Source: a virus
DNA length: 23,990 nt
Virus record (IMG/VR): IMGVR_UViG_3300030118_002996
Coordinates: 1 to 23,990 of that record
Reading direction: 5' to 3' (one strand)
In this document: positions 209 to 8,590 of the stretch, in pieces
Layout: the number at the start of each line of letters is the position of its first letter
Numbering within the stretch: the stretch's first letter is position 1
Made by a program: the position numbers and the translations under genes
Notes under the pieces: model-generated
What the model was told of the DNA's origin: nothing
Seen by the model: only the letters and a program-made list of their open reading frames with translations
Databases searched by the model: none

Positions 209-293
209 TTGTTACCTTTTTAGATTTTTTAGGAGAAGCTTTTGGTTCTTTCTTTGGCTCATCATAAGATTGAACTTTAAATTGGTATCCCAT
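177..293 (-). CDS. 38-aa Lys/Ser-rich micro-protein
   Basis: Starts with ATG inside a TAATG overlap with the stop of the 24-aa gene upstream and overlaps the start of the next gene. This is the tight coupling seen throughout the leftward unit. The product begins MGYQFKVQSYDEPKK and continues as a Lys/Ser/Pro-rich, probably unfolded tail (KASPKKSKKVTSEKEE). I do not recognise a family. The start overlap and the SD-bearing downstream gene are the main reasons to call it real; the low-complexity tail limits confidence. Confidence 0.45.
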   Translation of the reverse strand: MGYQFKVQSYDEPKKEPKASPKKSKKVTSEKEETKASS

Positions 294-367
294 TACTTTT
301 TACCTCCCTTCTTTTTCTTCTTTGACTTTGGCTTCATAGTAGAACCATACCCAACACCTTTAGGCAT
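293..367 (-). CDS. 24-aa glycine/lysine-rich micro-protein
   Basis: ATG at 367..365, stop overlapping the next ATG (TAATG). The product is MPKGVGYGSTMKPKSKKKKK plus a short GGKK tail. Tiny MPKG.GYG..+Lys proteins are common beside phage head genes, so I call it coding on style and on the start-stop overlap. The same frame is open upstream without an ATG for about 20 more codons (KKQLRTAKGSKIK...), so a longer form from a TTG near 440 is possible. That would start inside the decayed repeat array. Function unknown. Confidence 0.4.
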   Translation of the reverse strand: MPKGVGYGSTMKPKSKKKKKGGKK

Positions 368-435
368 AACAAAAAAAGTAGCTGTCTTTATCTTACTTCC
401 TTTTGCCGTTCTTAGCTGTTTTTTAAAATAAAGCT

Positions 436-1138
436 TTTTTACCAACAGCAGTATTATTGTTACCAATAGTAATTACCAATAGCTGTATTATTGTTACCAT
501 TAGTATTTACCAACTGCTGTATTCTTGTAAGTCGTTGTATGACCAATAGCAGTATTATGCTTACCACTCGTAGCAGTTAAAAGCCTTGCAATAACTACGT
601 TTTGTGTAAAATAACCGATTGCTGTGTTTTACTTCCATGCAATTTAACCTACTGCCGTATTATATGTACCGCTTGTATTTCCTACTGTTGTGTTTTTACC
701 AAAAGCAAAAAAACCTACTGCTGTGTTTTTGTATTTAAGATATTTACCCAACTGCTGTGTTTTTAGTGCCGGTTGTATTTTAGATGCAAGTAATTAAACC
801 AATAACTGTATTTTTATAAAACCATTGATATGACTGTAATTTTAGGCTGTATTCTATTTAAAGTAATTTAACCAACAGCAGTATTATGGTTGCCGGTTGT
901 ATTTTTAATTGAAGTGTTATAACTAGTAGTTGTATAAAGTAAAACCATTGATATAACTAGCTTTTAGTAAACAAATCCTACTGCTGTATTATGTGTACCT
1001 GATGTAAAACCTATAGCTGTATTATGTGTTCTCGTTGTATATCCTATTGCAGTGTTTTATGTACCTATCGTATTTCCTACGACTGTATTTTAGATCCTTG
1101 CAACAAAACCTATTGCAGTATTTTATGCACCAATTGTA
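436..1138 (-). repeat. Decayed array of about 16 NTAVG-coding repeat units
   Basis: Read on the minus strand, a core of the form AAT ACN GCN GTN GGT (Asn-Thr-Ala-Val/Ile-Gly) recurs at plus positions near 442, 475, 509, 541, 613, 647, 682, 713, 748, 799, 871, 976, 1010, 1042, 1075 and 1108. The step is 31 to 36 bp, with gaps that are near multiples of this. Complete units read like GGT AAC AAT AAT ACT GCT, which resembles the G-N-N-N-T-A-V-G repeats of phage tail fibres and surface adhesins. No long ORF exists. Several units have TAA just before the conserved Asn (near 1083-1122, and in the unit near 613), TAA also follows the core in two units, and the frame shifts repeatedly because steps of 32, 34 and 35 are not multiples of 3. 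A companion repeat (ATATCAATGGTTTTA) occurs twice, near 820-835 and 945-956. The stretch holds no convincing gene. It reads as a broken fibre gene or a non-coding reservoir of fibre repeats. Confidence 0.75.
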
Positions 1139-1139
1139 T

Positions 1140-1271
1140 TTACTTCCTTTTACGTTTTTTAGCACTTGATAAAGCGATAGCCTGTGCTTGTTTTAATGTT
1201 TTACCTTCCTTCATTAACAAACGAATGTTTGCAGATATAGCCTTCTGTGATTTGCCTTTCTTAAGTGGCAT
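1140..1271 (-). CDS. 43-aa basic phage protein (MPLKKGKS type)
   Basis: ATG at 1271..1269 overlaps the stop of the 52-aa gene upstream (TAATG); TAA at 1142..1140. The product MPLKKGKSQKAISANIRLLM continues with KEGKTLKQAQAIALSSAKKR. This is the familiar small phage/bacterial pattern MPL.KGKS...S.NI...M..GK...QA.AIAL..A+K, which I recognise from many phage genomes but which has no proven role. It sits after the minor head gene, a usual place for small virion-associated or DNA-binding proteins. It is the last clearly intact gene before the repeat array. Confidence 0.7.
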   Translation of the reverse strand: MPLKKGKSQKAISANIRLLMKEGKTLKQAQAIALSSAKKRKRK

Positions 1272-1429
1272 TATTTAAAAAACTTTCCAGCATTAATATC
1301 TTTTACAAAAGACTTAAAATCTTTTGCTTTTGAAGCTTCTTCAATACATTTTCTTCTTTCTTTCATATCCAAGTGCAGAGTTGTCATTAACTGTGCAAGC
1401 TCTCTTGAAAAGAAAGGATCATCAATCAT
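1271..1429 (-). CDS. 52-aa conserved-style hypothetical
   Basis: The ATG overlaps the stop of the MuF-ART gene (TTATGA) and its own TAA overlaps the next start (TAATG), so it is fixed in place by two coupled junctions. The product starts MIDDPFFSRELAQLMTTLHL and continues DMKERRKCIEEASKAKDFKS, ending NAGKFFK. It is helical and charged with one Cys and no membrane segment. I do not recognise a family. Being wedged between the minor head gene and the small basic protein suggests a head-assembly or virion role, an inference from position only. Confidence 0.65.
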   Translation of the reverse strand: MIDDPFFSRELAQLMTTLHLDMKERRKCIEEASKAKDFKSFVKDINAGKFFK

Positions 1430-3639
1430 AATTTAACTGTATCACTTACCACTATAGCTGATCTGTTGAGTATCACCCAGTAATCTGCGTCAAAGTGTAT
1501 TAATTCAGCACCACCTTCAACTAATTTATCTACTAAAGGCAAAGGCACTTGATATCCATCTATTCCAAGTATGGTGCAAGCTTCCCCTACTGACTCAATT
1601 TTGTAGCCTGTTAGTTTTTCTGCTTTTGCAATCGTTTCATCTTCCCATTTTCCAAAGGTTTGTTTATACCAATCGGAGTCTGGATATGCGTGTTCATTCT
1701 TTAAATTTTTTGTACTTGAACCCTTTTTCCAAGTTTTGAAGTTTGCATCTTTTTTTAATCCAAATGCAGTAATTCTTTTTTGCTTTTCAGCAACTGATAA
1801 TTTAGGTGCAAAGGCATTACTCTGGGTATAATGTTCAGCAATTTCAATAGCATTTTTTGTACTCTTTGATAAACTTGCTTTTGTTCCATGAAAGTTTCTA
1901 GCAGCAGCATAAGTTCCATTGCCATATAGACCTTCACCAGCATAATAATTATCACCTCCTTTACCGATACCCTTAAACTGATCATTCCATCTATCATCAG
2001 AAACTCCTCGATACAAAACAAGGTTTTCACCATCAGCACCCTTAACTAAATCTTTTCTATTTTTTAATGCTTGAACATTTTTAACTCTATCTGGTCTTTT
2101 ATTGAATCCTTGCTTCCAGAAAAGATAATCATTATACATTGGTGAGTTTTTATCAACTACTTTTTCAATACTTAAACCTTGCTCTAAAGATTGAATTTTA
2201 AAATCAATCGGCCCTGTATATGGGTTTTTTATACCTCTTGCTGTTTGTATTTTTATCTCATGCTCTCTGTACTTTTTAAGATCAGCCAACAACTCTTTTT
2301 CAGTTAGTTTTTTGAGTGGCTTTGATTTAACAAAGTCAGATGCCTTAGCAGTTCCTACAACCGCTTTAGGCTTGGGCTTTGGTTTGATATTTGTAGGCTT
2401 ACCATAGATTCTTTGTAAATCTTTCAGACTTCTTTCACTATCATCATCACGAACAAATTTTTTTATTGCTTTCTGTCCAGATCCTTCCTTCTTTGCCAAC
2501 CTCTTAAAATACTGAACTTTCTTTGCATTGCCTAAAGTTTTAACCTGTAGCTTTTTATCTTGTTGTAAAAGCCAATCACCATATTTCGTATCTTGTGGCA
2601 CTCTACCTGTTGCACTTGGTCTAGTAACAACCTTTCCTACTGGTGGCTTTTCCAAACTTGGATATTTCTTCTGCAATCCATCAAAGTCAACGACAGGAAC
2701 AGTGGTAGATCGACAATTAAAGTGCTGTGGTGGTGTAGGGCCTTTGTTGTATGCAAACTGTTTGCCATCAAGATCTCTGCAAACTGCACTTGTTCTGTTA
2801 TCTAAGGTTGCAACATATTCATATTTAGGGGCAACTTTACTATTTGCAGCATACACCGCCTGTGATGCCTGATTCTGTACTTGATTAACAGATGTTCTTA
2901 CTATTGTTCTTATTTGATGATTAGCAAGTTTTGTTCTTTCACCGCCAGCAAGTGCTAATTGTCTTGAAGTTTTAGCTTTTTGACCAAATTCTAAATTTCC
3001 AATCATTCGTCTTGCTATTTCTTGTGTTGATTCTCCGCTAAAAACCCCTTGTCTAATATTTCTTGCAAGCAACTCATGTTGCTTTGTTGCTATACCACGA
3101 AAAGCTTTCTCTACTGTGTCTCCATTTGGAAGGGTTTGCATTGCTCCCTGTCTTGCAGTAAGTTCAAACTTTCCAGAACCAAACCTTTTAAAATCATCTT
3201 CTGTAAATTCTTTACTGGTAAATATATTTACTTGTGTTGGATCTGTTTTAACAAAAGATTCTGCATATTTTCTACTAACAGCAACAGAATTTATGGGTAC
3301 ATTACCAGACTTTACAACTTTTTTTAATTCATTCTCTATAAATCCAGCCTGTACTTCTGCCAGTCCTTCGATTTCTTTAATCATTTTTTGAGTTGTAAGC
3401 CTTGACCAAGTATCTAAACTTATTTTTGACTGTTGAATTATTGCTCTTAATCTTTTTCTTGTCTGTGGTGCTATTACAATCCCTGCCCCAGCTTGTGCTT
3501 GTCTAATGTTTATCTGTTTTAGTTTCTTTGTTGCTTCAAGAATTACATCATTGTATGCCTTTTGAAAATCCTTTGCAACAGCATTACTATATCTGTTTAA
3601 ATCAATAGTCTCTCTGAAAAATGCTTCTGGTGTACTCAT
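1426..3639 (-). CDS. Mu F/SPP1 gp7-type minor head protein with C-terminal ADP-ribosyltransferase-like domain
   Basis: 737 residues. The N-terminal 240 are helical and head-morphogenesis-like. Residues about 243-305 carry the Phage_Mu_F signature: IRTIVRTSVNQVQNQ, then YVATLDNRTSAVCRDLDGK and PPQHFNCRSTTVP. A basic Lys/Pro linker (about 417-428, KPTNIKPKPKPKA) leads to a C-terminal region (about 536-731) with LVLYRGVSDD (Arg544), GEGLYGNGTYAAA (568-580), an ILGIDGYQV stretch (691-698) and the closing YWVILNRSAIVV (720-731). That order (YRG, G-x-G-x-Y, xYWVILNRSA) is what I associate with ADP-ribosyltransferase domains fused to MuF proteins. I see no clear ExE/QxE, so activity is uncertain. 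A family member of SPP1 gp7 type sits at the portal vertex and can enter the cell with the DNA. The gene lies 3 bp after portal, the normal order, and is longer than MuF-only proteins because of the added domain. Confidence 0.85.
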   Translation of the reverse strand: MSTPEAFFRETIDLNRYSNAVAKDFQKAYNDVILEATKKLKQINIRQAQAGAGIVIAPQTRKRLRAIIQQSKISLDTWSRLTTQKMIKEIEGLAEVQAGFIENELKKVVKSGNVPINSVAVSRKYAESFVKTDPTQVNIFTSKEFTEDDFKRFGSGKFELTARQGAMQTLPNGDTVEKAFRGIATKQHELLARNIRQGVFSGESTQEIARRMIGNLEFGQKAKTSRQLALAGGERTKLANHQIRTIVRTSVNQVQNQASQAVYAANSKVAPKYEYVATLDNRTSAVCRDLDGKQFAYNKGPTPPQHFNCRSTTVPVVDFDGLQKKYPSLEKPPVGKVVTRPSATGRVPQDTKYGDWLLQQDKKLQVKTLGNAKKVQYFKRLAKKEGSGQKAIKKFVRDDDSERSLKDLQRIYGKPTNIKPKPKPKAVVGTAKASDFVKSKPLKKLTEKELLADLKKYREHEIKIQTARGIKNPYTGPIDFKIQSLEQGLSIEKVVDKNSPMYNDYLFWKQGFNKRPDRVKNVQALKNRKDLVKGADGENLVLYRGVSDDRWNDQFKGIGKGGDNYYAGEGLYGNGTYAAARNFHGTKASLSKSTKNAIEIAEHYTQSNAFAPKLSVAEKQKRITAFGLKKDANFKTWKKGSSTKNLKNEHAYPDSDWYKQTFGKWEDETIAKAEKLTGYKIESVGEACTILGIDGYQVPLPLVDKLVEGGAELIHFDADYWVILNRSAIVVSDTVKL

Positions 3640-7822: not shown

Positions 7823-8590
7823 TTAAAAAGGGGTGTTTTTGGGTTTACTAAATGTAGGTGCTTTTCTTGTAGCTGTCAATAAATATTGCTCATATTGACC
7901 ATTTTTGATCCAGCGGTGGGCATCACTGAATAAAGGAGTAAACTTATCAGCCTTAAGTGACTTTCTTCTGGCTCTTATATCGGCCTCAAGGCAGCCTTTA
8001 AGTTTATCCCTTGTCTTTGTATCTAATTTCATAAATTCGTTATATGCAAGCTTTTTTGACAGAGATATAGTTCTCATATCTTTTGGAATTTCTAAATAAG
8101 TTTGCCAGAAAGAATTAAAGCTTTTATTTTTATAGTTATTTGTTTTAGTTATATTGTTTTTCTTAGGGTGTAGCTGTGACACCACCCCAGTCTTTGTCTG
8201 ACACCCCCCTAGTGTCTGTGTGATACTACCCCCGTTTCTCTCTGACACTACCCCAGTTCCTGTAAGATACCCCCCTGTAAAAGTAGGATCTTGAACTGGT
8301 AATGCCTTGCATTGACTCCAGATTGTTACTCTATAGCAGTTTGTTTTCTGGTTATGCTCATCAATCCTATATTGCTTTTGCAATAGTTTTAACTCAACTA
8401 ATTCATTGACAGTTCTAATTACTGTAGATCTGGACATCATTGCATCCTTAGCAATAGTGGCATAACTGGGCCAAATGTTTGGATAATAACTTTGAAGAAC
8501 CCAAAGAACCATTAGCTGATGTGGTGTTACCTTTCCTTTTAAAGATGATGGAAGTGCTATAAATGGTGTATTTTCTGGTATAAAACTCAT
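7823..8590 (-). CDS. Replication initiator, lambda O-like (winged-helix N-terminus)
   Basis: 255 residues. Residues about 20-90 form a helix-turn-helix region of the helix_turn_helix_36/RepA-O type: VTPHQLMVLWVLQSYYPNIW, PSYATIAKDAMMSRSTVIRT, VNELVELKLLQKQYRI. Residues about 100-150 are a Gly/Thr/Val-rich linker (TGTGVVSERNGGSITQTLGG) whose DNA carries five 22-bp tandem repeats. Residues about 155-240 are helical and basic with an SLSKKLAYNEFMKL segment and the closing DAHRWIKNGQYEQYL, like the C-terminal part of phage O-type initiators. In lambda, O binds iterons located within its own gene and recruits the helicase loader; the same plan is inferred here. ATG at 8590 lies 3 bp from the divergent rusA-like start and no Shine-Dalgarno is visible. 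No helicase or loader gene is in the window. Confidence 0.72.
   Translation of the reverse strand: MSFIPENTPFIALPSSLKGKVTPHQLMVLWVLQSYYPNIWPSYATIAKDAMMSRSTVIRTVNELVELKLLQKQYRIDEHNQKTNCYRVTIWSQCKALPVQDPTFTGGYLTGTGVVSERNGGSITQTLGGCQTKTGVVSQLHPKKNNITKTNNYKNKSFNSFWQTYLEIPKDMRTISLSKKLAYNEFMKLDTKTRDKLKGCLEADIRARRKSLKADKFTPLFSDAHRWIKNGQYEQYLLTATRKAPTFSKPKNTPF
8108..8159. other. AT-rich stretch beside the iterons (putative unwinding element)
   Basis: Directly after the iteron block on its downstream side the coding strand is almost only A and T with few G/C (plus-strand TTTTTATAGTTATTTGTTTT and neighbours), encoding NITKTNNYKNKSFNS. In lambda-type origins an easily melted AT-rich segment borders the iterons, so this is the likely duplex-unwinding element if the iteron block is an origin. 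AT-richness alone is common in this genome, hence moderate confidence. Confidence 0.5.
8160..8269 (-). repeat. Five 22-bp iterons, putative replication origin
   Basis: On the minus strand T-A/G-T-C recurs at exactly 22-base steps (starting at 8269, 8247, 8225, 8203 and 8181). Each of the first four is followed about 11-19 bases later by a G-run. The shared core reads ACTGGGGTAGTGTCA with one to several mismatches per copy; the fifth copy is only half conserved. The period of 22 is not a multiple of 3, so the three reading phases are used in turn and the repeat cannot come from a repeated peptide. Selection on DNA is the simpler reading. The location inside the O-like gene between its two domains, next to an AT-rich stretch, copies the layout of the lambda origin. 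Confidence 0.75.

Follow-up and report, generated by a model that had tools for sequence, protein, structure and literature searches.

The question raised by this locus is how DNA resembling part of a tail-fibre gene came to be broken in every frame while keeping its motif. The DNA analysed (the window, 23,990 nucleotides) is a 24-kb IMG/VR virus record, and the contig is a genome fragment of a cyanophage akin to MED4-184, MED4-117 and P-HS2, with head morphogenesis, portal and terminase genes assigned by PHROGs. It carries an array whose repeat is the DNA of the commonest phage tail-fibre motif, yet with stops and frame breaks. The explanation favoured here, with a probability of about 0.6, is that a 32-bp viral module has been amplified in tandem into an array that is mobile and untranslated; when in frame, this module is the NTxGxxNTAVG repeat of tail fibres.

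Structure of the array

The array extends over positions 442..1139 on the minus strand and was delimited, from its cores, spacing, stops and junctions, as a run of NTxGxxNTAVG modules with 16 cores and no open frame. A sequence-only reading had claimed that about 16 units retain the core N-T-A-V/I-G, and on the minus strand there are indeed 16 cores with at most one mismatch, 13 of them exact, whereas dinucleotide shuffles of the array stretch gave a mean of 0.003 exact cores. Its statement that the window holds no intact NTAVG gene also stands, there being no core outside the array within the window. The cores have their first bases at 1122, 1089, 1056, 1023, 990, 885, 812, 761, 727, 694, 661, 628, 556, 523, 489 and 455, giving core-to-core steps of 33, 33, 33, 33, 105, 73, 51, 34, 33, 33, 33, 72, 33, 34 and 34 bp. 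Most steps are of 33 bp and the range is 33 to 105 bp, rather than the 31-36 bp originally proposed. Its first element is a half-module, ATACAATTGG, immediately following the upstream gene's stop codon (1142-1140), and its last is a full core ending at 442.

The long gaps consist of decayed units and a recurring 72-bp unit type. One such unit (557..628, minus strand; a core plus ACACAAAACGTAGTTATTGCAAGGCTTTTAACTGCTAC) was the probe that retrieved the same array in other contigs, and a degraded unit of this type (TTTGTTTACTAAAAGCTAGTTATATCAATGG...) joined to a decayed unit (887..985, minus strand) is common to L086, L088, L089 and L116. The longest open stretch in the array is 49 codons in any frame, which bears out the claim that no long reading frame exists; the cause given for it, TAA codons before the conserved Asn, was only partly right, TAA lying immediately 5' of Asn in just 4 of 16 units and the remaining breaks being 1-base shifts (the 34- and 73-bp steps) and stops within the gaps. 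A separate 22-bp tandem repeat (3.7 copies) occurs at 8177-8257, within an ORF at 7823-8590.

It might be supposed that the array is translated after all, with TAA read as an amino acid and programmed frame shifts, and the stops do lie where other units have polar NAN codons, 109 of 140 being TAA followed by A. This is scarcely credible, as the contigs hold no tRNA that would read TAA, the array has no in-frame start codon, its frame changes at the 34- and 73-bp steps and the neighbouring genes use TAA as a normal stop. An antisense reading was rejected: antisense frame 0 has few stops, but conservation there falls on its wobble positions. Pfam gave no match for the unit translations.

Insertion between two intact genes

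At this position, site A, the array is flanked on its left by an intact small gene (1140..1271, minus strand; MPLKKGKSQ...KRKRK, 43 aa, phrog_2423) and on its right by another (293..367, minus strand; MPKGVGYGSTMKPK..., MPKGVGYG..., 24 aa) that is kept beside the first in relatives. After the last core comes a decayed second copy of the upstream gene's 3' end (393..438, minus strand, the bounds being approximate; it ends GGCAAAAGGAAGTAA), which was recognised by comparison with the empty sites of L006, L008, L041 and P-HS2 and forms a direct repeat flanking the array. The two small genes are directly adjacent, with no array between them, in phage isolates and in 42 of the 44 relatives at whose loci both flanks were measured, from which it follows that no resident gene decayed at site A. 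The array is an insertion between two intact genes and not a decayed resident gene.

The suggestion that a fibre or adhesin gene had recently decayed here is therefore not supported: the site is empty in those isolates and relatives, all such arrays found are broken and their cores are still conserved. A broader form of the idea, that a former gene of 33-nt repeats is now a pseudogene spread by descent, would fit the clearly decayed state of some units, but is improbable given the empty sites, the occurrence of the same broken arrays at unrelated sites and the lack of an intact version in any relative, no intact orthologous gene having been found at site A. In addition, change at the fixed core positions is much rarer than at wobble positions and also falls below that at codon position 2 of the neighbouring genes.

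The possibility that sequencing or assembly error disrupted an intact gene, which had also been raised, carries next to no weight. Repeats are hard to assemble, but contigs from other metagenomes, namely L116, L088 and L042 (93.5%, 91.8% and 88.5% identical over aligned bases), have this array too, its stops and frame shifts included, and since these breaks are shared by independent contigs read errors are refuted. The genes neighbouring the array in the window are also open and intact. The head morphogenesis protein encoded nearby differs in length among close relatives, with 737, 747 and 416 aa in the window (1426-3639), L033 (1416-3659) and L042 (1370-2620) respectively; the first ~410 residues are kept, while the C-terminal region differs or is absent, as if domains had been swapped.

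Distribution and mobility of the arrays

Pattern scans revealed ~20 distinct frame-broken arrays, and every array of this kind that was found is frame-broken. The family occupies at least three unrelated intergenic sites in marine cyanophages. Besides site A, these are site B, where terL and a small gene occupying the terS position flank the array (in one orientation in L086, L087 and L091, in the opposite one in L103/L107), and site C, after an intrinsic terminator (L089/L093, L112 and L117). One 31-kb contig carries two arrays, at sites A and C. No array was found among isolate phages (50,697 records searched).

The array of L086 at site B is 90% identical over 1054 bp to that of L088 at site A and 93% identical over 780 bp to that of L089 at site C, with no match between the flanks in either case. 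Identity of 90-93% over blocks of 0.8-1.05 kb at sites whose flanks are dissimilar means that whole arrays move. The divergence of arrays also fails to track that of their flanks: between the window and L088 the spacers differ by 10% and the third codon positions of flanking genes by 35%, whereas between the window and L106 the respective values are 21% and 15%. The arrays are thus mobile both between phages and between genome positions.

At sites A and B the arrays have a half-module, NTxG, at the start and a full NTAVG core at the end, and these module-bounded ends indicate that the structural unit is the 32-bp module NTxGxxNTAVG, with the consensus AAYACNNNNGG-N7-AAYACNGCNRTNGG. A check for terminal repeats found the direct repeat of the gene end at site A; inverted cores were confined to part of the site-C arrays and of the single copies. 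No recombinase or terminal structure able to move the array was identified, and a non-systematic look at the ORFs neighbouring arrays noted no transposase candidate. The array was probably spread by homologous recombination.

A role as a promoter array was rejected, promoter-like (sigma-70) sites numbering 0 against 3.5 expected in the window array and 4 against 5.2 in L087. At site C in L089 a promoter-like TTGACA-18-TATAAT lies just downstream of the array.

The coding form in tail-fibre genes

The same module occurs in intact fibre genes, where it has a 51-nt period and is open over all or most cores. A stop before Asn was found in none of 815 cores in coding fibres, as against 79 of 263 (~30%) in arrays. 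The search for an intact NTAVG fibre in relatives, proposed as a check on the initial interpretation, was successful: the contig of L037, whose portal protein is 94% identical to that of the window phage, encodes a 957-aa S74 fibre with the 51-nt module, and its site A has no array. The phage NTAVG/NTTG fibres with a Peptidase_S74 end (e.g. the 957-aa protein in L119) share with the array the NTxGxxNTAVG module and a similar codon use, but have an intact frame, a 51-nt period and a YQALYS-like spacer and lie within a gene, whereas the array has no frame, a 33-nt period and an intergenic position. The array thus has the module of these fibres without their open frame or their 51-nt period. As to origin, the early link to fibre repeats looks right, the module being shared with intact 51-nt fibre genes, and derivation of the module from such repeats is the most likely course.

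The codon before Asn also differs. In arrays it is mostly TAA, CAT, TAT, AAT, AAG or AAA and almost never NAC, while coding fibres often have NAC, which argues against a simple recent refreshing of the arrays from fibres. No donor fibre with matching DNA was identified, and no intact coding gene with 33-nt units was found in the window's phage family. A coding NTAVG fibre was present in 3 of 7 lake phages bearing the slot and in 0 of 6 with the slot empty, numbers too few to decide.

These observations bear on the proposal, also made from the sequence, that the array is a silent cassette store donating repeat units to an expressed fibre gene by gene conversion. Broken donor copies occur in other gene-conversion systems, and fibre genes with the same module do exist, one of them in a close relative. 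The proposal is nevertheless weakened, to the point of being doubtful, by the lack of a 33-nt-unit gene, by the mismatch of periods (51 nt in fibres, 33 nt in arrays), by the stop that ~30% of array units would introduce and by the difference in the pre-Asn codon. The window, from a contig that is a fragment, contains no recipient gene, and the relative with the 51-nt fibre has no array.

Conservation without translation

Within the cores of 33-bp units, codon positions 1 and 2 are fixed (except V/I) and position 3 is near-saturated, and the pattern is equal in stop-flanked and other units. Counting substitutions per codon position, another of the checks suggested earlier, gave rates of 0.068, 0.022 and 0.197 at core positions 1, 2 and 3 between arrays, and recently diverged unit pairs showed 10, 3 and 32 substitutions at these positions. 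Between pairs of site-A arrays the fixed core positions differ by 0-7% and the wobble positions by 6-45%, third positions of the flanking genes differing by 13-58%.

As such a pattern could arise if an old pool of units were shuffled in tandem, single-copy modules were examined. A single-copy setting was found downstream of the RusA gene, where the module is present in 20 of 80 loci of one phage group, 17 of the copies being distinct. These differ by 2.6% at the fixed core positions; the value for wobble positions is 39% and that for ungapped flanks 59%. The fact that they were retrieved by pattern could bias the ratio ~2-fold, not 6- to 15-fold. The RusA gene of the same phages differs by 8% at position 2 and 35% at position 3. 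The untranslatable module, single copies included, retains codon-like conservation. The cause would be a continuing influx of coding-derived modules or else selection on the module as such.

Such selection might act on the module as a DNA- or RNA-level signal (for protein binding, recombination or packaging) that tolerates change at every third base, the arrays then being clusters of sites. This is a minority possibility, although the strongest of the alternatives. The constraint seen in noncoding arrays and in single intergenic modules speaks for it, several copies adjoin terminase genes, and conservation of the middle A of the pre-Asn codon is stricter in arrays than in coding fibres. However, wobble at exactly every third base and a fibre-like codon use are hard to explain without a coding past, and the gene context of the modules is inconsistent. 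Nor is there a fold, Rfam or promoter signal: on both strands RNA-fold z-scores are near 0 for most arrays, with no general signal, and Rfam gave no match for arrays.

Origin and significance

The preferred reading, of an untranslated mobile expansion of a fibre-type module, can be set out as a series of steps. One or a few modules would have been transferred out of a fibre-type repeat gene, through short-homology or illegitimate recombination, into intergenic DNA, where they may have expanded by unequal recombination or slippage. Whole arrays were copied between phages and between non-homologous intergenic positions, as the identity of arrays at sites A, B and C shows. These arrays are not ORFs: stops are concentrated at the codon before the second Asn, and 1-base shifts recur. 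The pattern of fixed positions 1 and 2 and a free position 3 in the core may be maintained by re-supply through recombination, from coding repeats or from a shared pool of variants, or by selection on the DNA module. The likeliest role is a putative one as near-neutral, recombinogenic repeat DNA that yields no gene product and provides homology shared between phages at gene borders.

As the motif is preserved in arrays that move, a coding-type repeat seems to persist as untranslated mobile DNA. The opposite direction, in which the module is primarily a virus-specific mobile intergenic DNA element maintained at the DNA level and the ubiquitous tail-fibre NTAVG repeats are its in-frame, domesticated form, is unlikely; if true, it was a mobile intergenic element that gave rise to the repeat proteins. 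The findings point to an exchange of short modules in which mobile intergenic repeats and the tail-fibre genes of phages, determinants that contribute to host range, both take part, and they suggest a possible way for phages to have homology in common at gene borders and to swap genes there. Conservation of the codon type in untranslatable intergenic viral DNA is unexpected, and is a warning that coding-like conservation alone is no proof of a gene.

Comparison with known systems

Small mobile repeats and mobile coding repeats are already known (PMC2229807, PMC10969869, PMC2996958), and a search of one literature collection found no paper on NTAVG intergenic repeats. PARCELs are, like the array modules, short repeats with protein-like constraint that have spread by horizontal transfer and shuffling. 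They are, however, built on a 25-residue amphipathic motif in open frames and are found in microbes, whereas the array module has 11 codons, contains stops, has no open frame and is viral. Rickettsia palindromic elements, REP and MITE-type repeats (PMC2229807, PMC10969869) resemble the module in being short, mobile and intergenic, sometimes intragenic, and the array shares with MITE and REP elements the presence of copies at unrelated sites (A, B and C). The module differs from REP and MITE-type repeats in its codon-style conservation, its having been found in viruses only and the lack of any consistent terminal inverted repeats, target duplication or linked transposase in the copies seen. In halovirus HF2, a tailed virus that also has repeats between its genes, the repeats carry promoters and keep their positions (PMC8707807), while the arrays are not enriched in promoters and change position. 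What is unusual in the present case is that a repeat containing stops, and met in this analysis in viruses only, still evolves as if coding.

Modules in other aquatic viruses

One search pattern had a TAA codon standing in frame ahead of the second Asn, so that a match is noncoding in that frame. It matched in 35 stretches of viral contigs and had 0 matches in 85,000 prokaryote genomes, a collection in which two patterns were tried and neither matched. The new matches were intergenic and came from aquatic phages of several unrelated groups; they were either solitary or formed small arrays whose spacers were arbitrary. An inverted core lies on the 5' side of some modules (L204/L217, L215 and L112/L117). 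The noncoding copy in L214 has kept a YDAGC spacer like that of fibres; both of its x codons are TAA, and one T has been inserted.

A number of minor observations were made on the surroundings of these modules. Intergenic modules occur near an actual or likely small terminase subunit gene in L210, L216/L219, L100, L109, L118 and L105 (phrog_51 in L216), which may hint at a connection with packaging regions, and a second intergenic palindrome-like sequence, CCCGAACAATTG(T)..CGGGTT, adjoins modules in L097, L100, L105, L109, L113, L203 and L206. At a contig end, L140 has an array of the NTxGxxNTAVG module with a 39-bp period (3001-3152), downstream of a methyltransferase-like ORF and with no open frame. 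In L222-L301 the DNA downstream of the RusA gene has, at a distance of ~30-250 bp, an intergenic slot that GTTTAAAC palindromes often delimit. Its content varies by phage, comprising the NTxGxxNTAVG module, 9-bp repeats (GTCAGTTTC, GTTACACCC) or small palindromes (AGCTCACCCGGTGAGCT), and it looks like a cassette slot.
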